This document shows, in pieces, positions 610 to 20,431 of a DNA stretch of 21,389 nt; position 1 is the first letter of the stretch; each line of letters begins with the position of its first letter. Made by a program: the position numbers and the translations under genes. The notes under the pieces are model-generated. The model ran no database searches. It was not told the DNA's origin and saw only the letters and a program-made list of their open reading frames with translations. Source of the DNA: a virus; the IMG/VR virus record IMGVR_UViG_3300048012_000026, positions 1-21,389 of that record, one strand, 5' to 3'.

Positions 610-2004
610 TTAGAATTTGAAGTTTTCGAATTTTTCGGAATCAATTCGTTGACCGGAGTTAGAGTTATCAAACGCTGGTCCATTATCTACTTCTTTATTT
701 AGGGGTGAATCATTTTGATCAACGTCATATAGACGCATTTTACTACGGTCAATACCTACGACAAACTTCTGATATGTATTCAAATCGTTATATCGGTTTT
801 TCAACTGTTTGACTAGGATCTGGTTGTTTGCCTTGAGTTCGTCATTGGATATAAGTGCGAACATGAAGTCGGCGGTTGCGGGTAGTCCAAAAGACTCGGA
901 CGTATCTTCCAACCCCACGTCATCATTATTGAAACCAGAACGAGTCGTCTGCGTTGCAGACACGATCGGCACGTCGAATTCCACGGCAAGACCACGTAAC
1001 TCTTCAGCAATAGACTTGATATACGAATACGAGTTAATAGCACCGCCCATTCCTTTCATACGCGCACTGGCGCAGATGTTGAGATAATCGATATAGATGA
1101 TATCGGGAACAAACTGTTTCTTCAGTTTGAGTTCATTGAACAACGCACGGAAGTGGTTCGCGTGTGCACTGCCCGTTGGGTATTCCTTGATGATCAGTTT
1201 ACCTTCGGTCTTACCCTTGACCCTTGAGACGCGGTCATCGAACATTGGTTTACTCAAGTGTTCGAGTTGATCCATCGGCACGTTAAGTAGGTTCGCGTCG
1301 ATACGTTCTGCGATTCGTTCTTCGGACATTTCCATCGTGAGGTATAGAACGTTCTTACCGGAACTGAGAGCCCCTGCGGCAGAGTGACACATGAATAGAG
1401 ACTTACCCACACCCGTGCCCGCGAGAGCGATGTTTAAGGTCTTGTTAGGTAGACCGCCCTTTGTGACTCGATTGAAGTAATCAAGATCGAACGGGATGCG
1501 TTCCTCTTCTAGGTGATAGAAGTCGAATCGTGCGTCAGAGTTCTCAAGATAGTCGTGACCGATGTTGGTATCGAACGACACAGACAGTGCCTTGGTCAAT
1601 ACGTCTGGGATCGCGTTCTTACTGAGGGTCTGGTGTTTGCCGTCGATGATAGAGATCGACTCCATTACCGCATTGAAGACCGCACGATCCTGACAGAACT
1701 TCTCAGTCTTCTCAACCAACCATTCCATATCTTCATCAGCACGTGTGAAGATATCGGGAAGGATTTCCATAGCATGACGATACTGTTCGTCCGGTAGACG
1801 ATCATTCTCATCAATCTCAATCTTAAATGCCTCAAGTGTCGGCAGACGATTGAACTTCCCGATGTATTTGAGTGTCTCTTTGAGAATGGACTGATATGTC
1901 CCCTCAAAGTAATCCGGAACAAGAAAGGCAGCAACCTTTCTCGTATATGAATCGTTAGTCAGTAGATTCCGTAGAATCGTCTGTTGTAGGTTGATCTCCG
2001 TCAT
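610..2004 (-). CDS. 41: Replicative DNA helicase, T4 gp41 type (DnaB family)
   Basis: Hexameric 5'-3' helicase that unwinds the fork ahead of gp43 and, in T4, works with the primase as the primosome. At 464 residues it is close to T4 gp41 (about 475). An N-terminal helical domain (1-150) is followed by a RecA-like motor: Walker A GTGVGKS at 196-202, the DnaB-type stretch YLTMEMSEER at 221-230, Walker B-like DIIYIDYLNI near 305, and a downstream SATQTTRSG segment of the kind that senses nucleotide and contacts DNA. The start at ATG 2004 has a ribosome-binding site (GAGGG) and lies inside the 3' end of the preceding gene (50-base overlap). It is the last large gene of the uvsX message in this window. 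Confidence 0.95.
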   Translation of the reverse strand: MTEINLQQTILRNLLTNDSYTRKVAAFLVPDYFEGTYQSILKETLKYIGKFNRLPTLEAFKIEIDENDRLPDEQYRHAMEILPDIFTRADEDMEWLVEKTEKFCQDRAVFNAVMESISIIDGKHQTLSKNAIPDVLTKALSVSFDTNIGHDYLENSDARFDFYHLEEERIPFDLDYFNRVTKGGLPNKTLNIALAGTGVGKSLFMCHSAAGALSSGKNVLYLTMEMSEERIAERIDANLLNVPMDQLEHLSKPMFDDRVSRVKGKTEGKLIIKEYPTGSAHANHFRALFNELKLKKQFVPDIIYIDYLNICASARMKGMGGAINSYSYIKSIAEELRGLAVEFDVPIVSATQTTRSGFNNDDVGLEDTSESFGLPATADFMFALISNDELKANNQILVKQLKNRYNDLNTYQKFVVGIDRSKMRLYDVDQNDSPLNKEVDNGPAFDNSNSGQRIDSEKFENFKF

Positions 2005-2317
2005 CGTTTCCCTCTACTGTGCGAATGCTTTTGTTGTGCACCGCTTCCGCTAAAATATCCTGTAGTACATCGGCTGCAAAACTTTGCAACTCAATATTGT
2101 CTGTATTATACACGGATTTGTCGGGTGTGTCAATAACATCAAAGTTAAATTTTATAGATTCGCTACTCTCATCAATCGTGACGTTGCGATATCGAATCGT
2201 AACGTTCTCGTAGGGAGAACGCATAAGACTGACATTCCACATGGGACTGCCTTTGATCGATACTGCTTCAAGAGTGTAGTCTAAGTTTTCGGATGGCTTG
2301 TCTAAGTCCAGATCCAT
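1955..2317 (-). CDS. Small acidic protein between uvsX and gp41 (120 aa)
   Basis: A 120-residue protein starting at ATG 2317, with GGAGG-type ribosome-binding site and a TAATG overlap with the uvsX stop. The body (1-95) has alternating hydrophobic and charged residues suggesting beta strands, then a short helix (SFAADVLQDILAEAVHN). The last 20 or so residues are almost only Asp, Glu, Thr, Ser and Gly, and this tail is encoded over the start of gp41 in another frame. T4 has gene 40 at the equivalent position between uvsX and 41, but I see no convincing residue similarity. Its placement suggests a helicase or recombination accessory role; this is inference only. Confidence 0.7.
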   Translation of the reverse strand: MDLDLDKPSENLDYTLEAVSIKGSPMWNVSLMRSPYENVTIRYRNVTIDESSESIKFNFDVIDTPDKSVYNTDNIELQSFAADVLQDILAEAVHNKSIRTVEGNDDGDQPTTDDSTESTD

Positions 2318-3366
2318 TATGCTTCCTCCAAAATATCTTCTGCATTTATTTTACTGGCGAGACCGATTCTATAGGTCTTCTCTAAAAAGTCTGCGAAATT
2401 TGTTGTTTCGAAAACAGGTTCCCAGAAACTTGCCTCTAGGGTATCCTTTGTTCGTACTTTAGTCCCAACGAGTTCGCCTGTAGTTGTGTCAACTTTTTGA
2501 TACCAACCGTTAGAAGGCTTAGCGACATAACCGCCAGCAAGAGCGACATCGAGAAGACCACTATACTTTTGAACACCCCCTTCCCACGAAACTCCGATAG
2601 GAATTTTTGACTTCTCTTTGACATAACGAGATTTCTCTATATTGATAACAAAATTGTATCCAACAACTTCTGTTCCTTGTTTCTCTTGTTGACGACCAAT
2701 AATCCAAATATTGTCAGCAGAGTAGTAGATACCTGTTCCACCACCAACGATATCTTTTGGAAATAAACCGATCTCTTTGTATGTGTGGTTGATTGCGATA
2801 AGAGGGATATTCTTCATCGTCAAGTATGGGGTCGCCATACGGAACAGACCTTTCAGTGCTTTCGCACGAGACATGTCTGCAACACCCTTTTCAGCCAACG
2901 CATCTTCTAGTTCTTTCTTAGATGCAAGATTACCGATAGAATCAATCACAATCATAACATCATCATTTCGGTCTAAGTTTTCTAACTGGTTGATCAGATC
3001 GAACTTGAGTTCTTCGACGTTTGCGATCGGTGTGTGTAAGACACGGTCAGTATCGACACCGAACTGTTCGAAGTATGACTGCGGAGAACCGAACTCCGAA
3101 TCATAAAAGAGGACAACCGCCTCTGGTTTTGCGTTAAGATATGCACCCGCCATAAGTAGCGCGAATGATGTCTTGAAGTGTTTTGATGGTCCCGCAAGGA
3201 CGGTAAGTCCCGGCGAGATACCACCGTCCACGGAACCGGATAACGCGACGTTCACCATTGGAACGTCGGTAGGTACCATATCTTTTTCAGTGAAGAACTT
3301 ACTCGTCGAGAGGGTCGCTGTCTCCTTGATCTTGCTGTTCTTCTGTAGTTTGTCCATTATCGACAT
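2317..3366 (-). CDS. uvsX: UvsX, RecA-like recombinase
   Basis: Strand-exchange ATPase that coats single-stranded DNA and drives recombination-dependent replication and repair. At 349 residues it is near T4 UvsX (about 390). The Walker A is the unusual UvsX form GPSKHFKTS at 59-67 (T4 has a GPSKSxKS-like version), Walker B is VMIVIDSIGNL near 135-145, and a RecA-type loop region with GGGTGIYYSADNIWIIGR follows around 205-222. ATG 3366 has a strong GGAGGAAG ribosome-binding site and lies 68 bases inside the end of the upstream dehydrogenase gene. The stop overlaps the next start as TAATG. Order uvsX, small gene, 41 matches T4. Confidence 0.96.
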   Translation of the reverse strand: MSIMDKLQKNSKIKETATLSTSKFFTEKDMVPTDVPMVNVALSGSVDGGISPGLTVLAGPSKHFKTSFALLMAGAYLNAKPEAVVLFYDSEFGSPQSYFEQFGVDTDRVLHTPIANVEELKFDLINQLENLDRNDDVMIVIDSIGNLASKKELEDALAEKGVADMSRAKALKGLFRMATPYLTMKNIPLIAINHTYKEIGLFPKDIVGGGTGIYYSADNIWIIGRQQEKQGTEVVGYNFVINIEKSRYVKEKSKIPIGVSWEGGVQKYSGLLDVALAGGYVAKPSNGWYQKVDTTTGELVGTKVRTKDTLEASFWEPVFETTNFADFLEKTYRIGLASKINAEDILEEA

Positions 3367-4282
3367 TCTTGCTTCCTCCGAAATCTACGAATGTAATGTT
3401 GTTGACTTTTTCACGTTCATCGAGTTCATATTGTACCCTATAATCGCTGTTGATGTCAAGAACTTTTTCAAGTAAATCAAACGACGCAATAGTTCCGTCG
3501 TCCTTATCATGTGTAGAAAATCGTAAGAATGCCTTGGTGTCTTTTGGTAAACACGCACCACCGAATCCACGTTTTCCATCAAACCCTGGCACACGAGTAT
3601 GCCCCACACCTACACGATCGTCTTGTCCAACAGCACGAACAACCGTGTTAAAGTTGCAACCATACAAGTTCACAAGATCGTACAACTGATTGAAGAAGGT
3701 AACCTTGGTTGATAGGAAAGAGTTGATGGTGTACTTGACGAAGGACGCCTCGTAAGCACTCATTCTGTGATAGTCATTAGACTCACATGAACCGAAGATC
3801 TCATAGATATCTACTATTTCAAGTACTGCCTGTGGTGTACCACCCATCACGTGGAATTTTGCAGAGACGAAATCCGCCTTCGCATTCTTCTCTGTGAGGA
3901 ACTCTGGGTTATAACAGAATCTGTCGTGTTGTTCTTTGGACATGGACGCGTACAAACGATCGACCACGTCCGGTGTGATAGTTGATTTTACAACAACCAA
4001 TGCGTTTGTGTAGTTCAGTGATTTCAATACCGAACTCTCTACGATCGATGAGTTTACCGAACCGTCGTCGTTCGACGGTGTCGGCGCACATACGAAAACG
4101 CAATGTGGTTGTTCGTCTGGTAACATGGACTTGAAGTCTTCCACGTCATTATTGTATTTTTTTGGATCGATTAACATGTGTTGCACGAGAGGATGTGTGA
4201 AGGCAAACTCAACTGCCTGTCCCACAAACCCATGTCCAACTATTGCAAGTCGGAAAGTTTTTTCCGTATTGTCAGTTGCCAT
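3299..4282 (-). CDS. UDP-glucose 6-dehydrogenase-like protein, C-terminally short
   Basis: NAD-dependent dehydrogenase of the UDP-glucose/GDP-mannose family, which oxidises a nucleotide sugar twice to a uronic acid. The Rossmann motif GHGFVG is at 16-21, NPEFL at 125-129, the helix Lys of FVKYTINSF at 183, and the catalytic Cys244 lies in GFGGACLPKD. At 327 residues it is shorter than typical members (about 390-450): the NAD-binding and central helical domains are present, but the C-terminal UDP-binding domain is largely missing and replaced by an acidic tail encoded over the start of uvsX. Because the adjacent gene is a UDP-glucuronate epimerase-like enzyme, UDP-glucose is the likely substrate. 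Some family members with this short form occur in T4-like phages, so it may be functional; activity is not certain. Confidence 0.88.
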   Translation of the reverse strand: MATDNTEKTFRLAIVGHGFVGQAVEFAFTHPLVQHMLIDPKKYNNDVEDFKSMLPDEQPHCVFVCAPTPSNDDGSVNSSIVESSVLKSLNYTNALVVVKSTITPDVVDRLYASMSKEQHDRFCYNPEFLTEKNAKADFVSAKFHVMGGTPQAVLEIVDIYEIFGSCESNDYHRMSAYEASFVKYTINSFLSTKVTFFNQLYDLVNLYGCNFNTVVRAVGQDDRVGVGHTRVPGFDGKRGFGGACLPKDTKAFLRFSTHDKDDGTIASFDLLEKVLDINSDYRVQYELDEREKVNNITFVDFGGSKNVDNGQTTEEQQDQGDSDPLDE

Positions 4283-5229
4283 TAGGCATCTACCTCATTG
4301 TATTTTTTGTACCATTCATAGAACCGTTCTACCCCCTCTGCGATACTGACCTTTGGATCATATCCAAGTGCTTGTAATTTCGCAGTGTTAGACCATGTCT
4401 CTAACGTGTCTGCTGGGTGTTTAGGTGCTAAGTTCTTGTCTGCTTCCTTGCCGGTGTTCTTCTCAATCTCCGAAATGAAGTCCATCAACGCGACCTGTTC
4501 GCCACGTCCAATGTTGAAGATCTCACCTGCTGGGATGTCCGCATTATCTAGTACGATCTCAATACCGTCGTTGATGTCATCGACGTAAGTGAAGTCGCGT
4601 TTCATATCACCATAGTTGTATACGGTGATCTGGTTACCTGCAAGAATGTTTTTGGTAAAGTCAAACAACGCCATGTCTGGTCGACCCCAAGGGCCGTAAA
4701 CGGTGAAGAAACGTAGACCAGTTGTGTTAAGACCGGAAGACTGCATCTGACATTCGTTCGCCCACTTAGTGTAACCATATGCGTTGAGTTGTTTACCCGT
4801 CTCTTCTCCCTCAGTCCAAGGCACTGGTGATCCCGCATACACACACGAGGTGGATGCGTAGACAATACGGATTTCGGGGAAATACTTTTTGCAAGTGTCG
4901 ATTAGGTTTTGTGTTGCGTCGATGTTGTTTCGATGGTAACTCTTTTCCTTACCCAACGAATCACGCACACCTGCCATTGCAGCCAAGTGGACTATCGTGT
5001 CCGGTTGAAACTCTCGAATGAGTGCTTCGGTCTTTACTTCGTCGCAGAGATCACAACCCCAGATGTCGAGGTCGAAATGTTTCATGCGGTCAACTTTAAG
5101 GGACGGACTATATAAATGTTTATTAAAATTGTCAATACCTTTGACAACCAAACCGTCTCTTTCTTTCAATCTAGCCATGAGTTGCGACCCGATAAATCCT
5201 GCCGCTCCCGTAATTATTACACGTTTCAT
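4282..5229 (-). CDS. NAD-dependent epimerase, probably UDP-glucuronate 4-epimerase
   Basis: Extended short-chain dehydrogenase/reductase acting on a nucleotide sugar. Cofactor motif GAAGFIG at 8-14, the stretch HLAAMAGVRDSL at 81-92 (very like the HLAAQAGVR segment of UDP-glucuronate 4-epimerases), catalytic Ser/Thr region YASTSCVY at 124-131 and the YxxxK pair Tyr151/Lys155. At 315 residues the length is full. The product from UDP-glucuronate would be UDP-galacturonate, and the substrate would be supplied by the dehydrogenase encoded next (one-base TAATG overlap). ATG 5229 directly follows the stop of the primase-like gene. UDP-glucose 4-epimerase is the main alternative, but the AGVR signature favours the glucuronate enzyme. 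Confidence 0.88.
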   Translation of the reverse strand: MKRVIITGAAGFIGSQLMARLKERDGLVVKGIDNFNKHLYSPSLKVDRMKHFDLDIWGCDLCDEVKTEALIREFQPDTIVHLAAMAGVRDSLGKEKSYHRNNIDATQNLIDTCKKYFPEIRIVYASTSCVYAGSPVPWTEGEETGKQLNAYGYTKWANECQMQSSGLNTTGLRFFTVYGPWGRPDMALFDFTKNILAGNQITVYNYGDMKRDFTYVDDINDGIEIVLDNADIPAGEIFNIGRGEQVALMDFISEIEKNTGKEADKNLAPKHPADTLETWSNTAKLQALGYDPKVSIAEGVERFYEWYKKYNEVDA

Positions 5230-6168
5230 TCATCCATTCCTATAAACATATTCTAGTGCGCGATCCGCCTCCACGTGCAACGGTCTATTATCATACCAGT
5301 TACCCGTTTCGCGGTCGAACTCTCTACAAAGTTCTTCTATTTGTTTTGCAGTGATCGGATACCCTCGTGAGTATGCGTTCCCTGCGATTGCGACCATGAT
5401 CGCATAAATCTTCGAATACCAACCTGTCCCCGAAATCGTCTGATATTCTGCACCCAGTTTTTTGGGCCAGAACGGACAATCTCGATAGGATGTCCAGCGG
5501 TAGTCGGTGTTATTTAGTCCATTCTTACGGTGTTCAATTACCGCCTTCTGCATTTCTGGTGGTAATCTATCTAGGAAGGAATTGCCTGTCTTTTCGACGT
5601 AGGGATGTTTCGCAATCAACTCAGAAACATTAAGAGGATCACCTTGATTTGTGATGAAGAAACTTTTCGCATTTGGATACTGTGCGGGCACATAATACAT
5701 ACGCGCTAGGTCTTTGGTCTGGGGATCTCCGATATCACCAAGTTCGGTATTCAATGCATACCAGAAAGCCTTGATTCGTTCATTCTCAACGTTTTCGTCT
5801 AGTCTAAAGACAATTCTAAATTTGAGATGGTCTTCTCGACTCGATGCAGTGTTGTACACAACATATTCATATCTTCCGAAGGTTTCATACAACTGTTCGT
5901 TAAGGCTTCGTACATCACTAGAGAAACTGTGATCATCAACATCAACGCAACACCAGCCACCCCAATAATTAGTAGATTTGTTACTGCGAGTCGTACCCAC
6001 TTCGAAAACAGCAGGACTAATAAGAGGACTAGAATTATTTCCACCCTTTTCTCCCTTTTCCTTATACATGTTCTTCAACGTTTTGACAAACTTATCCCAA
6101 TCACCTAATACCATATGGCGATGAGTCTTGTTGTCGAACTGGTTTTTAAATATAGTTAATTCATACAT
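5230..6168 (-). CDS. Archaeo-eukaryotic-type primase-like protein
   Basis: Protein of 312 residues from ATG 6168 (two in-frame ATGs lie at 6180 and 6189). Counting from 6189, a glycine/serine-rich stretch precedes WCCVDVDDH (79-87), which resembles the metal-binding DxD of archaeo-eukaryotic primases. It is followed by HLKFRIVFRLDE (121-132), like the strand carrying the second motif, and KDLARMYYVPAQ (159-170), like the third motif with its conserved Arg. The C-terminal 90 residues are helical (ITAKQIEELCREFDRETGNW) as in primase C-terminal modules. It could lay down primers for gp41/gp43, in addition to or instead of a gp61-type primase, which is not in this window. A RepB-like origin-binding role is the alternative. 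The 6168 start fits the domain start and falls at the predicted transcription start. Confidence 0.65.
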   Translation of the reverse strand: MYELTIFKNQFDNKTHRHMVLGDWDKFVKTLKNMYKEKGEKGGNNSSPLISPAVFEVGTTRSNKSTNYWGGWCCVDVDDHSFSSDVRSLNEQLYETFGRYEYVVYNTASSREDHLKFRIVFRLDENVENERIKAFWYALNTELGDIGDPQTKDLARMYYVPAQYPNAKSFFITNQGDPLNVSELIAKHPYVEKTGNSFLDRLPPEMQKAVIEHRKNGLNNTDYRWTSYRDCPFWPKKLGAEYQTISGTGWYSKIYAIMVAIAGNAYSRGYPITAKQIEELCREFDRETGNWYDNRPLHVEADRALEYVYRNG

Positions 6169-6175
6169 GGAGTGT

Positions 6176-6205
6176 ATCATACCACACACTTAGTGTATCT
6201 GTCAA
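6176..6205 (-). promoter_or_regulatory. Sigma70-type promoter for the primase-sugar-uvsX-gp41 operon
   Basis: TTGACA (6200-6205), an 18-base spacer and TATGAT (6176-6181) on the minus strand. The spacer holds a perfect 11-base palindrome, ACACTAAGTGT, a possible operator. The predicted start of transcription is about 6169, one base before ATG 6168, so the message would have no leader. It sits directly after the terminator of the GIY-YIG gene, which supports its being the entry point for the downstream genes. Confidence 0.75.
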
Positions 6206-6234: not shown

Positions 6235-7476
6235 TTATCCTACAGTAAGTTGTTCTTTCTGATCTTGCAAGAGTTTCAAACCAACCTCTTGGAACTCAAT
6301 ACCCGCCTTCTGCATGAAGAACTCCAACATATCACGATCCGCAATGTTCTTCGGTCCAGAAATCCAAGACTCTTGGTCAGCGATAGATGGGTGACGTACA
6401 AGACACACAGCACGTTCGTAGGCGAACTCTTGTTGTGCACGGTAGAAGTTAGACATGAAAGTCTGGATTGAACCACCCGAACCACTGGTGATTACTTCCA
6501 CATAGGTCTTACCATCTTTATTGAAACTTGGGATGATATCTTCTTCAAGGTGTTTCTTCTGAGAACCACGTGTCCAGTCAATCAGTTTCTTACCGACAAG
6601 ACTCAGTTCGTGTTTTTCAATCGCCTTCTTCGCTTTGTTGACTGCGGAGTTGATTTGACGTTTGGTGATGTTGAACTTCTCAAGTGCAATGATCATTGCA
6701 TCTGAACCAAGGTCGATGTTGTGGTTGTAGTAGAGACTCTGTGCAATCTTAGAGAAATCGTCTGACTGGTTTACTTTGGGTTGAATCTTACCTTCCTGAA
6801 CATTTAACATCATGCCCAAGTATTCAACTTCTGAATCCGACAAACCTTCCCACATTGACAAGGGAACCCGAATGACCTCAAGGGTAACACCGTGTTTTGA
6901 ATCATTGGTCGCAGGAGTAGAGTGGTTACCACCAATACCGGCAGAACCATCAACACCATATTCGTCATCACCCTCTTCAAAGTAATCTTCTAGGAGAACC
7001 GCCTGAAGTTTTAACTTCTTAGTGTTACCGTGTTCTTCATCGATAGCGTTCTGGATATTCTGTTTGTGCGTCCAGTCATCTTCTGCACGTACCTGAATGA
7101 AGGTTGTCTTCACAACCTCAGACGCCATCTCCTGTTCTCCGGTCATGTTCTTGATCTTTGCTGCGAGATCCAAGACACGATCCATATCGAACTTCTTACT
7201 CGCGGGAGACCCGTTGGACTTGTTAAAAAACATCACGTTGGATTTTGCATTTGCTTCACTTAGCATTCTATGTTCCTCATTTTGCATTGCACCGTAACTT
7301 CCGGTGAGCAGCACTTCATAATCAAAGTCATCATAACTCTCTCTCAAGAGTCGATTAAATTCCTCACAAGTGGAGGAGTGGTTGTATCCATCGGAGATCA
7401 ATCCTTTGTGGATACCAACATACATCCGTCCAGTTGGACGGTGTGTGTATCTGTATAAGTACGCTTCATATCTCAT
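6235..7476 (-). CDS. GIY-YIG nuclease-domain protein with long unknown C-terminal region
   Basis: A 413-residue protein whose first 90 residues look like a GIY-YIG nuclease: YLYRYTH at 6-12, GRMYVG at 16-21, a Glu in NEEHRML (67-72) placed like the metal-binding Glu, and FFNKSNG at 83-89. Residues 95-413 are unlike the short Seg-type homing enzymes of T4. They contain an acidic linker (EEGDDEYG), a helical segment (near 250-310) that could bind DNA, and a Lys-rich region. It has its own promoter and a strong terminator, so it is a single-gene transcription unit. Possibilities are a free-standing homing endonuclease, a recombination or repair nuclease, or a nuclease aimed at host or rival phage DNA. 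The domain start right at the N-terminus supports ATG 7476, which has no ribosome-binding site. Confidence 0.75.
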   Translation of the reverse strand: MRYEAYLYRYTHRPTGRMYVGIHKGLISDGYNHSSTCEEFNRLLRESYDDFDYEVLLTGSYGAMQNEEHRMLSEANAKSNVMFFNKSNGSPASKKFDMDRVLDLAAKIKNMTGEQEMASEVVKTTFIQVRAEDDWTHKQNIQNAIDEEHGNTKKLKLQAVLLEDYFEEGDDEYGVDGSAGIGGNHSTPATNDSKHGVTLEVIRVPLSMWEGLSDSEVEYLGMMLNVQEGKIQPKVNQSDDFSKIAQSLYYNHNIDLGSDAMIIALEKFNITKRQINSAVNKAKKAIEKHELSLVGKKLIDWTRGSQKKHLEEDIIPSFNKDGKTYVEVITSGSGGSIQTFMSNFYRAQQEFAYERAVCLVRHPSIADQESWISGPKNIADRDMLEFFMQKAGIEFQEVGLKLLQDQKEQLTVG

Positions 7477-11282: not shown

Positions 11283-13754
11283 TTACCCAAAGAAATCCTC
11301 AAGGGTTGCGGCTGGTTCTGCCTTCCACCCGACCGCATCAAGGATCGGTTCCAACGGGTCAAGGAAGGTCTTATCGAACATCATGTCATAGTCTACGAAC
11401 TTGTGTAGACCGAGTTCAGGGGGTAGATTGAGAGGGAACGATACGACGTTCTGTCCCAATCGGTTAGGCAGTTTGAGGTAACAGAACTTGATCTTGGTTC
11501 CGGTCGTCACGTTTTCATAACGTGTGGTGAGATCGTTCTGTTTTATCGCGTTGTTATAGGTCAACGCGCCACGCACGTGAATCGGGCATGATTTCTTAAA
11601 AACATGTTCACGGTCGATCCACTTATCAAGGTTGGAAACACCACGAGGGAAAGACACATCTTCGGGAGGCAGAGTCTTGAAGTGGGACCGGAAGTCACTA
11701 ATATACCCTTGAGTGTCAGTCTCAGTACCTTCCACAATGACGCGGAAGATTTCCTTAAACTTATCGCGGACGACCTGCGGAGTGGAAGACTTGATTGCCT
11801 CGATACCCATCATCTTGAGTTTAGGTTCTGTGTACTGGACACCTTCGTTGTTGTGGACGTTTAGGATGTATCGTTTCTTCGCCATCCAGATCCCACGATC
11901 CGCGATCACCTCGCGTCCCATCTCCATGCGGTTGACATACGCACCCATAGCAATAGACATCTTGTCATATGACTCAGCGAGTTTCTTTTCGAAATGAGTG
12001 GAACAGATCTTGTCTAAAAACTTTACTGGATTTTTAGGAGCAAACTTGTCAACAAGGCCCCCCATCCTAATATAAACAGAGTCCGTATCAATTGCCACCA
12101 CATAGTCTTCTTCAGTTTCAAGTATTTTTTGCATTTCATTATTAACCGCCCTCTCTGCCCATTTGATCGCCAACTGACCGGCCATCGTGATAGACTCTGC
12201 GACCCGTTGATCGAAGTAACGGAACCACTTGTTACCCAACGCACCATAGAGTGAGTTCATTAGGATCTTGATTGCCATCTGTTGGTTGTTTAATGCAGTA
12301 ATCTTATACTGCAATGTCTTGTTAGGATTATTCTGATACTCTTGGTCTAACTTTAACATCTCATCTTTAATGATTCGACGTTCAGAGTAATATTGTTCAA
12401 TGATCTGTGGAATGATGCCTTTATGTTCGTGAGAGAACCTCACACCCGTAGGCGCGAGAGAATATCCCTCACCTTGGATCTGTTGACCATCAAGGAAAGA
12501 CTCTACCGATGCGTCCACCAGACCGTCCATAACGGTCTCTGGAGACATGTTATACTGAACAATGATGTTTGGGTATAGAGAGTTCAAGTCGAACGAGGTG
12601 ACCCATTCATGGGATCCTACCTGCGGTTCTTTCACGTAACCGCCTGGGTATGGGGTCTTCGGTTTTTCGGTCTTGGGTGGGATCGCGATCTTGTTCTTGT
12701 TCAGGAGTCGATAGATGATCGAGTCCCAAATATTCGTAGTACCCAAGGTATCTCCGTAGTTAACACCACCGCGATACGCCATAGTCAGAACCAGAGAAAT
12801 CAGGTCGAGTTTTTCATCAAGTTTGTGCACCAACTCCACATCTTTGACGTTGTAGTCAATAAACTTCTGGTAGTCCTCACGATAGAGAGTGTGTAGGTTT
12901 CCGTGTTCCTCATATGAGAGTTTGCGTTCGTCTAGGACGACGTGGGCGATGTGGTCAAGTCGATACGACTCTTGTTGTCCCAAGGTGTTGTATGTAAATT
13001 TTTTGAAGATTTCAATATAATCAAGATGTTCCATACCCTCAATGATGTATTCTTGATTTTCACGTCCATTGATCTTCTGCACACGTTCACGTACCGCGCC
13101 CCAAGGTGAGAGACGTTTTACTAACGTGTCGTCACCATACATTCGGTAGCATCGGTTGACGATGTAGGGGATATCGAAGAATCTTGTGTTCCATCCGGTG
13201 ATGATGTCCGGTGAATAGGTAACCCAATGGTCTACGAACTTACGCAGTAGGTCGTCCTCGTTGTCGCACTTGATGAACAGAACGTCCTCGCGCGTGGGCG
13301 TGTAGTCGTTGAGACCCCAGACCCAATACATGCCATCGTTCTTACGAATGGCGATAGAGATTATGGGATGTTCCGCAACATCTGGAGAAGGAAACCCTTG
13401 ATCGGAAGCGACCTCAATATCAATATTTAGAACTCGAACATCTTTACGTTCAAATTTAATGTTATTGGGGAAGGTCTCCGCGATGAACTGCATCGCGTAG
13501 TTGGTCATACCGTAGACCTTAAAGTTGGAGACCTCACGATATTGTTTTGTAAACTCAGTCGCCTCTTTCATGGAATCAAACTGCATTTCCATGACAGAGG
13601 TGCCATCTAGAGTTCTCCAGTCTGACGGAGAGTTCCCAGTAACATAGAGTTTAGGTTTGAAGGGTACGCGCAACTTGAACTGTTGTCCATTGTCATAGCC
13701 GCGGTATAGTATGTTGTTGCCCATTCGCAACACGGATGTATAAAATTTACTCAT
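11283..13754 (-). CDS. 43: Family B DNA polymerase, T4 gp43 type
   Basis: Replicative polymerase with proofreading. Exonuclease motifs: NIDIEVAS with Asp112/Glu114, [11 protein letters not shown] with Asn189 and Asp194, and DYNVKD with Tyr301/Asp305. Polymerase motifs: A at SFDLNSLYP (Asp389), B at KILMNSLYG (496-504), C at IDTDSV (Asp556/Asp558). The extreme C-terminus, LEDFFG, fits the clamp-binding peptide that docks on gp45. At 823 residues it is shorter than T4 gp43 (898) but like gp43 of marine relatives. The start [15 protein letters not shown] aligns with the T4 N-terminus (MKEFYISIETVGNNI), so ATG 13754 is well supported although it has no ribosome-binding site. It is transcribed from its own promoter, whose predicted start is one base before the ATG. 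Confidence 0.97.
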
Positions 13755-17087: not shown

Positions 17088-17465
17088 TTATTCTCTTCCA
17101 CCTTTATTAACCTTATTTTTGAGTTCTTGTAATTGTGCCGAGGTTAAGAGTCCAATAATCTGCTTCGCTTTGGAATCGCTATATCCGTAATACTCTTTGA
17201 TACACTCGATATCTGTACTTTGGGGTTTATCCCATTTCGAGAAACGTTTTTTCCTACGTATAATATTTATAAGAAAATCGTGTTGAAGTCTCGCATCTAT
17301 ATGATGCAACCTGTTCATTTCGTTACTAATTAACACAGTATCTGGAAAGTATGAAAGCGACCTATTTACTAGGAAGCTATTGTATTGATTAATATTTTCC
17401 GGATCCTTATCGAGTAAATTTACCTTGGTACTGTTAATGCTGTTTAGGAAATCAAACGGACTCAC
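17088..17465 (-). CDS. 62: Clamp loader small subunit, gp62-like
   Basis: Small subunit that, with gp44, opens the gp45 ring and loads it at primer ends. The 125 residues are shorter than T4 gp62 (187), as in marine relatives. Recognisable parts are NRSLSYFPDTVLISNEMNRL (T4: NALSQFPECMPAVYAMNLI), HDFLINIIRRKKRFSKW (T4: NYLMAAVPRGKRYGKW) and a helical end. Similarity is weak overall, but the ATGA overlap with gp44 and position before regA match T4 exactly. The low-GC, Ile/Asn/Lys-rich codons differ from gp44. Confidence 0.85.
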   Translation of the reverse strand: MSPFDFLNSINSTKVNLLDKDPENINQYNSFLVNRSLSYFPDTVLISNEMNRLHHIDARLQHDFLINIIRRKKRFSKWDKPQSTDIECIKEYYGYSDSKAKQIIGLLTSAQLQELKNKVNKGGRE

Positions 17466-18406
17466 GCTTTGACCTCCACGTTTGCCATCACCTCTGTGAG
17501 ACAGGCGACCATGTTTAATTCATGATCTGCGACAAACGCATTCTTGTATTGATAGTCAGCAAGTATCAAAACAAGTTGTGGAATACTATTCGGGGAGACA
17601 TGGTCATACATGCGATCGTAGACACCACGGAATACCGCCGCTGGTTCTACGTCAATGTTATTGACGACCCACGTCCTCATCTTCTTAAAGTTTTTATCAC
17701 GGATTGCGCCGAACAACTGAGTGTAGTTATCTACGACTTCACCGTCGAGAGCAGACGCCACGTTCAGTGACCCCGAAATCGATCCTTTCTGCAACTCATT
17801 CAGAACACGCCTCCAATCCGGTGCGTGTTTCATGATGACCTGCGCAAGGACATCCTTATTATAGTCTACACCCTCCGTCTGGAGAATGGTCATCGCGCGT
17901 TGCATAAACTCCGCCGAGAGAGACTGGAGAGTCTTCTTGGTGGCGCTGAACGCGATCTTAGTGCATCGCGAGTGTAATGGGTCGATGATCTTGTTTTCGA
18001 AGTTACAGGTCATGATGAACCTACAGTTTTTCGAAAACTCCTCGATGAACCCACGCAATGCGGGTTGGGTTGACTGGGGATTTAGATAGTCCGCCTCATC
18101 AAGGATGACGACCTTGTAACCACCAGCCAACGAGACAGAAGAGGCGAACTGCTTGATCTTTCCTCGTAGTGTGTCAATGTTGCCTTCTTCGGACCCGTTG
18201 ATTACGATGTAATCTAATTCCAGTTCCTCGCATATCGCACGAGCGACTGTAGTTTTACCTGTCCCAGCAGTCCCACTAAACATCATGTTCGGGATTTCTC
18301 CACCGTCCACAATGTTCTGAAACGTTTCTTTCAGTTCTGTGGGTAGGATAGTTTGGGATACAGTTTTTGGGCGGTACTTTTCCACCCATAAGAATTCGTT
18401 ACTCAT
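17462..18406 (-). CDS. 44: Clamp loader large subunit, gp44 (AAA+ ATPase)
   Basis: ATPase that forms the 4:1 gp44/gp62 loader with gp62. Walker A GTAGTGKT at 45-52, Walker B VVILDEAD at 97-104, sensor region FIMTCNFENKI (129-138), and the arginine-finger SRC motif at 144-146. The opening WVEKYRPKTVSQTILP is the standard family N-terminus. At 314 residues the length equals T4 gp44 (319). ATG 18406 is preceded by GGAG and its own promoter. The C-terminal collar domain is helical. Confidence 0.97.
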   Translation of the reverse strand: MSNEFLWVEKYRPKTVSQTILPTELKETFQNIVDGGEIPNMMFSGTAGTGKTTVARAICEELELDYIVINGSEEGNIDTLRGKIKQFASSVSLAGGYKVVILDEADYLNPQSTQPALRGFIEEFSKNCRFIMTCNFENKIIDPLHSRCTKIAFSATKKTLQSLSAEFMQRAMTILQTEGVDYNKDVLAQVIMKHAPDWRRVLNELQKGSISGSLNVASALDGEVVDNYTQLFGAIRDKNFKKMRTWVVNNIDVEPAAVFRGVYDRMYDHVSPNSIPQLVLILADYQYKNAFVADHELNMVACLTEVMANVEVKA

Positions 18407-19753: not shown

Positions 19754-20431
19754 TTATGCTCCGTATGTTGATGACTTTTCAAGTGCAATAAAGTATTCGG
19801 TTTTGCCAGATGTTGATCGGAAACTAGAAATCAACTTAGTTGAAATCGAAACCTCATAATCATCACCCAACAATTTCAGGTTATTTACCCCAATAACAAA
19901 TTTGAAATCTGCATCCTCTGGGAACTGACCTTCAACTTGAATTGAGTATGAATTTGAAGTCGTATTGTTAATATCAACGACATCAATACGTACAGCGTTT
20001 CCATCGGGACTAATTGAAATTTCATCATAACCCAATGCAGACGATGCACGTTTGATCTTACTTAGGGTTTCGTTAGTGAGTAGAAATCTGACCTCACACT
20101 CAGGCATGATGATCTCTTTCTTAGGTGCAGAAAGCATCTCTGGATCTGAGTAGAAATAACGAACTGAGGAAAGACCACTGCCGTCTGATACGGTACAGAA
20201 GTTTTCACCAAACTCGATTGAAGGATTGTCTACAAGGGACAACACCGACAAAAACTCCGACAGATCGTAGATACCGAATGAACTAGGAAAGGTTTCATCA
20301 ATCTCTGCTTGAGAGACAATGTTCTTTGCGATAGACATAGTCTTGATGACGTTGCCGCCATTGACTACGATGTTTTGATTAATCGTCGAGAAGTTTCGTA
20401 GGATCTCGACAGTTCTGGTTGATAGTTCCAT
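19754..20431 (-). CDS. 45: Sliding clamp, gp45
   Basis: Trimeric ring that tethers gp43 to DNA and, in T4, also serves as the moving activator of late transcription. At 225 residues it equals T4 gp45 (228). Motif-level matches include the opening LSTRTVEILRNFSTINQNIV, and the start of the second domain KIKRASSALGYDEISISPDG typical of clamp repeats; the end KTEYFIALEKSS fits the final strand. ATG 20431 has a GAGGA ribosome-binding site. It heads a message that also carries two small genes, a tRNA and the alternative oxidase. Confidence 0.93.
   Translation of the reverse strand: MELSTRTVEILRNFSTINQNIVVNGGNVIKTMSIAKNIVSQAEIDETFPSSFGIYDLSEFLSVLSLVDNPSIEFGENFCTVSDGSGLSSVRYFYSDPEMLSAPKKEIIMPECEVRFLLTNETLSKIKRASSALGYDEISISPDGNAVRIDVVDINNTTSNSYSIQVEGQFPEDADFKFVIGVNNLKLLGDDYEVSISTKLISSFRSTSGKTEYFIALEKSSTYGA

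Follow-up and report, generated by a model that had tools for sequence, protein, structure and literature searches.

Probable replacement of the gp61 primase by an archaeo-eukaryotic-type primase in a clade of T4-like phages

Introduction

The helicase gp41 and the primase gp61 of phage T4 make up the textbook primosome. The primase has zinc-binding and TOPRIM domains, and docks on dimers of gp41 hairpins through a motif behind its zinc ribbon together with its C-terminal helix; the gp41 hairpin that binds it comprises residues 104-118 (PMC10359460). The T4 Core Genome counts gp61 among its genes (PMC2993671). Primases of the archaeo-eukaryotic (AEP) fold are frequent in phages (PMC5862659, section 5), and a survey of jumbo phages describes AEP-AAA+ fusions in a siphovirus subgroup (PMC7824862). 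Among characterized AEPs, three are especially useful for comparison here: the PrimPol of cyanophage S-2L, whose AEP domain is accompanied by an extra C-terminal domain with its best match in the VirE family (PMC8065100); RepB', the plasmid primase of RSF1010; and the NrS-1 PrimPol, which carries a C-terminal helicase domain and lacks the zinc finger of other AEPs (PMC8718748). In the latter two the AEP domain is followed by a helix bundle, and such bundles bind the template recognition site and are required for primer initiation (PMC8718748).

Here we describe a T4-type replication locus in a 21,389-base viral record (the window, meaning the whole stretch analysed) that encodes an AEP-type primase. 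We put the probability at roughly 0.8 that in one T4-like clade this protein took over primer synthesis from the TOPRIM primase gp61, within a replisome that is otherwise of T4 type. The database label 'DNA primase' and the occurrence of AEPs in phages were already known; the replacement of gp61 by an AEP appears to be new, and we found no account of it in a T4-type replisome among the matches listed in a search of the titles and abstract openings of open-licence papers.

Results

The gene and its family

ORF analysis places the primase gene at 5230-6168 on the minus strand, encoding 312 amino acids beginning MYELTIFKNQ; plus-strand frame 1 across the same interval contains stops. Alignment gives most support to the ATG at 6168 as the start codon; a GTG at 6189 opens the longest frame. 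The open frame and the three motifs picked out by a sequence-only reading of this DNA proved real: VDVDDH (residues 75-80), FRIVFRLDE (117-125) and DLARMYYVP (153-161) all lie in the minus-strand frame.

Among PHROGs the product matched phrog_9765, 'DNA primase' (2.8e-46); helicase-primase families matched less strongly. Relatives are common in IMG/VR, being encoded by at least 596 stretches (of 599 that fit the search pattern), but few among deposited phage records, of which 7 of 50,697 match. The T4-like AEP phage group is known mostly from environmental DNA. The seven matching records are C48C1 (75% identity, the only one above 60%), five Vibrio phage records (28-30%) and a Brevibacillus phage that matches in part. 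Databases label the genes of C48C1, henriette (RefSeq) and V6Aob 'DNA primase' and the others 'hypothetical protein'; starting from the V6Aob protein gave no pattern match among viral contigs. The 143 loci taken yielded 84 distinct primase gene sequences, and 79 distinct proteins (three from Vibrio phages) entered the motif counts given below, after exclusion of one homologue split across two frames. This last gene (L163, at G030:28528-29461 on a 137-kb contig) is broken by a TAA, through either an assembly error or a real lesion. The family is under strong purifying selection, with a median dN/dS of 0.13 and a maximum of 0.28 over the 1156 of 2556 pairs that were usable.

Fold and active site

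Sequence searches gave little help in classification. The window protein matched no Pfam family, and as a single query it matched nothing in the PDB; a profile gave 14 chance-level PDB matches, none of them a primase. Three of four family members had no NCBIfam match, and the fourth had one at chance level. BT4734-like AEPs (PF08800) were considered as a home for the family and rejected: 4 of 40 members matched at E ≤ 1, the best at 0.012, under the Pfam cut-off, and two unrelated Pfam families matched 7 and 6 of the 40 at the same level.

A structure predicted from 40 homologues (mean pLDDT 85.8, pTM 0.62) was more telling. Its top-ranked Foldseek match in the PDB, and the sole one at E ≤ 0.001, was the AEP domain of S-2L PrimPol (E 4.6e-5, probability 1.00). 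VIA alignment of residues 1-189, the predicted catalytic domain (5602..6168, minus strand), to the same structure (6zp9) gave Z 8.9 over 150 residues with an rmsd of 3.8. The next VIA rows (Z 4.4-6.9) were mostly AEPs, namely HP0184 (2ATZ, an AEP according to PMC8065100), RepB', CAPP, PrimPol-C, human and yeast PriS, and NrS-1; two designed helical proteins among the rows matched the C-terminal bundle. Against viral models there were 71 matches at E ≤ 1e-3, and primases, helicases and VirE-type proteins were numerous among the 50 listed. The AEP-type identity proposed from sequence thus survived structure prediction, and the model supports placing the protein in the AEP fold class, with its RRM-like catalytic fold.

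Seven residues (D76, D78, K116, R118, D148, D153 and R156) are invariant in all 79 distinct proteins. CCVDVD matches motif I (hhhDhD/E), with D76 and D78 of VDVDD (residues 75-79; 5932..5946, minus strand) as presumed metal ligands. The family has no conserved histidine at motif II; near the expected place, judged by spacing and a predicted strand, stands K116-F117-R118 (5815..5823, minus strand), a putative substitute for sxH. The putative motif III acid, also assigned by spacing, is D148 of GDPQTKD (5725..5727, minus strand), 30 residues after R118; the residue before it is glycine in 76 of 79 proteins, not hydrophobic as in motif III. R156-M157 (5698..5703, minus strand) resembles the 'Rh' of motif IV (PMC5862659). 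Going by sequence, then, the invariant residues appear to fit published motifs I, IV and, save for the glycine before the acid, III (PMC5862659). The motif II contact residue is histidine in most AEP families and glutamine, tyrosine, arginine or lysine in some (PMC5862659).

The same elements can be compared with S-2L PrimPol, whose contacts to triphosphate or metal are made by T112, K115, H118, D146 and R157 (PMC8065100). On a spacing-based mapping, T107, K116, R118, D148 and R156 stand at spacings near those five; the predicted fold is that of S-2L PrimPol, and the spacing of the acids and of the arginine after motif III is similar. The two proteins differ at motif II (histidine in S-2L, K-x-R here); in S-2L D146 follows H118 by 28 residues. 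Their identity is 9%. F55 (6004..6006, minus strand; F in 75 and Y in 4 of 79 proteins) stands 21 residues before D76 and is a candidate dNTP steric gate by its spacing, the S-2L gate Y63 lying 22 residues before E85 (PMC8065100).

The C-terminal 115 residues (198-312; 5233..5577, minus strand) are modelled confidently as a five-helix bundle (pLDDT 90.5, pTM 0.84). A Foldseek search with the bundle gave no match at E ≤ 0.001; by VIA the RepB' helix bundle came first (Z 6.5 across 75 residues), NrS-1 scored Z 5.0 and unrelated bundles 5-6, so that in the model this part only weakly resembles AEP helix bundles. As modelled, the primase has the order of AEP domain and then a helix bundle seen in RepB' and NrS-1 and, like NrS-1, has no visible zinc motif: no zinc ribbon was seen in its sequence. 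Unlike either of these proteins, it is a separate protein encoded in a block with a DnaB-type helicase, and their whole-length superpositions on the model are poor (rmsd 10-16).

Gene neighbourhood

T4-type replisome genes for gp43, gp44, gp45, gp41 and UvsX are all in the window (PHROGs, 1.7e-302 to 4.7e-71), all on the minus strand: the gp43-type DNA polymerase at 11283..13754 (phrog_262, 1.7e-302), the gp44-type clamp loader at 17462..18406 (phrog_168, 2.2e-115), the gp45-type sliding clamp at 19754..20431 (phrog_223, 4.7e-71), UvsX at 2317..3366 (phrog_97, 1e-90) and the gp41-type DnaB-like replicative helicase at 610..2004 (phrog_19, 1.1e-122). The sequence-only reading had the primase gene heading a uvsX-gp41 operon, and here it has to be corrected. 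A same-strand ORF of 413 aa (6235-7476, with a weak N-terminal homing-endonuclease match, phrog_314, 1.5e-4) ends 66 bases upstream, and genes for a nucleotide-sugar epimerase (4282..5229, minus strand; PF01370, 8e-48) and a UDP-glucose dehydrogenase-like protein (3299..4282, minus strand; PF00984, 3.5e-16) separate the primase from uvsX. The primase gene belongs to a longer series of genes read in the same direction.

This arrangement is a fixture of the T4-like family members. All 50 distinct genes whose downstream DNA extends to 6 kb or more are followed on the same strand by the epimerase, UDP-glucose dehydrogenase, uvsX and gp41 genes, gp41 starting at a median of 3,235 bases downstream. 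Where 6 kb of upstream DNA was available (46 genes), gp43 lies within 8 kb upstream in 45, at a median gap of 850 bases. The position of the two sugar genes (window 3299-5229) between primase and uvsX in 50 of 50 loci is odd and very stable.

Mutual exclusion of gp61 and the AEP

The sequence-only reading had noted that nothing like gp61 is visible up to the window edge, and had proposed that the phage swapped or doubled its primase. We built a gp61 profile from T4, Syn1 and Melnitz, holding out KVP40, P-SSM2, HTVC008M and RB49 as controls; all four were recovered (E 1e-84 to 7e-119). The profile had no match in the window up to E 10, which bears out the first observation, and DNAG_N (PF08275) had none there either. 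It likewise found no gp61 in 30 AEP-bearing IMG/VR contigs (all the taken contigs above 30 kb, the longest 151 kb) or in four AEP phage records, namely C48C1 (complete, 156 kb), V6Aob, henriette and 2.058.O; these are four of the seven phage matches, the search leaving out 3.058.O, a second henriette record and the Brevibacillus phage. The reverse also held: an AEP profile matched none of seven gp61 phages and none of 34 gp61-bearing IMG/VR contigs of at least 20 kb (from 80 gp61 loci returned), nine of which contain gp41. A search with PF13155 (TOPRIM) matched none of 16 records but also missed all seven gp61 control phages, and so was uninformative.

Most AEP records are fragments, and of the T4-like ones only C48C1 is described as complete. 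Gene order offers a second line of evidence. In Syn1, Melnitz, P-SSM2 and HTVC008M (Kyanoviridae), as in contig G031:C79, nrdA has gp61 just upstream of it. C48C1 and ten of the 30 AEP contigs have nrdA and no gp61; the usual place of gp61 is therefore covered and empty.

Two low-scoring matches deserve mention. The gp61 HMM gave one match on C48C1 pieces (12.7 bits, E 0.0067), in a frame annotated as DNA end protector; it spans profile positions 104-168, which take in the linker and a portion of the N-terminal lobe, and covers neither zinc ribbon nor TOPRIM. As 20 residue-shuffled copies produced no gp61 HMM match at all, it cannot be dismissed as noise alone, yet it does not represent a gp61 gene. 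The AEP contig G031:C58 has a 10.4-bit match (E 0.36) within a 2078-aa frame.

Doubling of the primase was not seen, as no searched contig had both the AEP gene and a full-length gp61. At the level of bins, G031, G032 and G033 hold AEP genes; in G031 and G032 full-length gp61 is present on contigs other than the AEP contigs, and G033 has a single 19-bit gp61 match, on a non-AEP contig. Bins named Sphingobacteriales, Rhodobacteraceae and Gammaproteobacteria (loci L164-L167) contain AEP-type phage contigs, which reflects either contamination or hosts; the Sphingobacteriales and Rhodobacteraceae bins have their full-length gp61 on other contigs.

Of the two proposals, then, the swap is favoured over the doubling: the relatives searched yield no full gp61 on their AEP contigs, while all four held-out controls are found. 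Since the window's own genome is represented by a 21-kb fragment, absence of gp61 from it is read from these relatives.

History of the exchange

In a first gp41 tree (32 proteins), the 21 T4-like AEP phages formed one group (support 96/99), and three Vibrio AEP phages lay far from it, so that the primase label needs two changes. A second tree added nine gp61 contigs and took T4, RB49 and KVP40 as its root. It contained 16 AEP rows and omitted the three Vibrio rows along with another five T4-like AEP rows. The 16 fell on one side of a branch with moderate support (87/64; 86% of bootstraps, with a long-branch warning), and the label needed one change, vs. 11 in shuffles. The T4-like branch probably records a single swap event. 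Because gp61 is found in both Straboviridae and Kyanoviridae, it is simplest to suppose that the ancestor of this clade lost gp61 and acquired the AEP.

The same AEP family is used by a second lineage without gp61, the Vibrio phages. The protein of henriette 12B8, 2.058.O and V6Aob (phrog_9765) is 28-30% identical to that of the window over 96-99% of the query and keeps the same invariant residues, and no gp61 was found in the three genomes. These phages differ from the T4-like clade in their distant gp41, which in 3 of 3 is located elsewhere, not beside the primase; in a Dda-like helicase gene (phrog_325) directly downstream of the primase in the two checked (among L085, L086 and L172); and in having kept a T4-type RNase H/FEN.

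Discussion

Displacement of gp61 by the AEP draws on the fold match of the model, the invariant residues, purifying selection, genetic linkage and the mutual exclusion of the two primase genes in the records searched; from these we infer priming activity, docking on gp41, the roles of individual residues and the choice between dNTPs and NTPs. The proposed protein would do the same job as T4 gp61, with gp41 as its partner, although it has no counterpart of the zinc-binding domain of gp61 and no sequence match to it. As gp41 opens the fork, the primase would bind the exposed lagging-strand template. The helical bundle probably grips this template, a role we assign because AEP helix bundles bind the recognition site and are needed for primer start. 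Metal ions on D76, D78 and D148 would then allow the first nucleotides to be joined while the triphosphate is held by K116, R118 and R156; elongation of the primer would fall to gp43.

How gp41 would accept such a partner may be approached through the hairpin that binds gp61 in T4. Mean identity in hairpin 104-118 is 0.79 in the AEP group, vs. 0.65 in the rest of the gp41 N-terminal domain; the corresponding values for the gp61 group are 0.54 and 0.47. The hairpin is thus not relaxed in the AEP clade, and the primase may dock there; however, it also forms helicase dimers, so its conservation neither shows nor excludes primase docking. No column of the hairpin distinguishes the AEP and gp61 groups, so it gives no sign that gp41 was re-fitted to the new primase.

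A more far-reaching form of the swap is that the whole T4-like clade moved from RNA to DNA (or DNA-rich) priming, a dNTP-gated AEP having replaced gp61 and RNase H/FEN having been lost because no RNA was left to remove. T4-type RNase H/FEN (PF02739) was absent from all seven T4-like AEP records searched (those of L018, L021, L036, L073, L081, L130 and L163), namely C48C1 and six contigs of 97-151 kb, and an RNase H HMM that recovered each of seven left-out RNase H proteins found none in C48C1 pieces. This absence fits DNA primers and may be taken as a hint of them. Against it, the loss represents one evolutionary event; the nuclease, present in 7 of 9 gp61 records, is missing from P-SSM2 and contig G062, which have gp61; and it is present in all three Vibrio AEP phages. 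On balance we consider a change of primer chemistry rather unlikely and treat it as a lead. If it did occur, it took place inside a T4-type replisome whose helicase, polymerase, clamp and loader were all retained.

The AEP could instead be an accessory PrimPol for repriming or damage tolerance, with lagging-strand priming left to host DnaG or an unrecognised phage primase. S-2L PrimPol polymerises DNA and showed no primase activity in standard assays (PMC8065100), and the absence of any group-specific column in the gp61-docking hairpin gives no sign of re-fitting. An accessory enzyme would not, however, account well for the absence of a T4-core primase where the AEP is present in the records searched, and the reverse, or for the fixed linkage of the AEP gene with gp43, uvsX and gp41, and we regard this explanation as improbable.

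Still less probable is an origin-specific, Rep-like initiator that primes once and leaves lagging-strand primers to the host, as might be suggested by the plasmid protein RepB' among the structural matches and by the fact that plasmids, like viruses, encode AEPs (PMC5862659, section 5). The window keeps UvsX and C48C1 encodes a UvsY-like mediator. UvsX and UvsY are parts of T4 recombination-dependent replication; with these kept and gp61 lost, a new general primase would be called for. A catalytically dead AEP retained as a structural part is hardly credible: the motif II histidine is indeed missing, but D76, D78, K116, R118, D148 and R156 are kept in 79 of 79 proteins under strong purifying selection, and PolpTN2 is active with glutamine in place of that histidine (PMC5862659).

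With displacement of gp61 as the preferred reading, a clade in which an unrelated primase replaced gp61 while gp41 and gp43 were kept would be a natural experiment on the exchangeable parts of a replisome. It bears on how a DnaB-type helicase accommodates a primase of foreign origin, and on whether a replisome can change between RNA and DNA primers.
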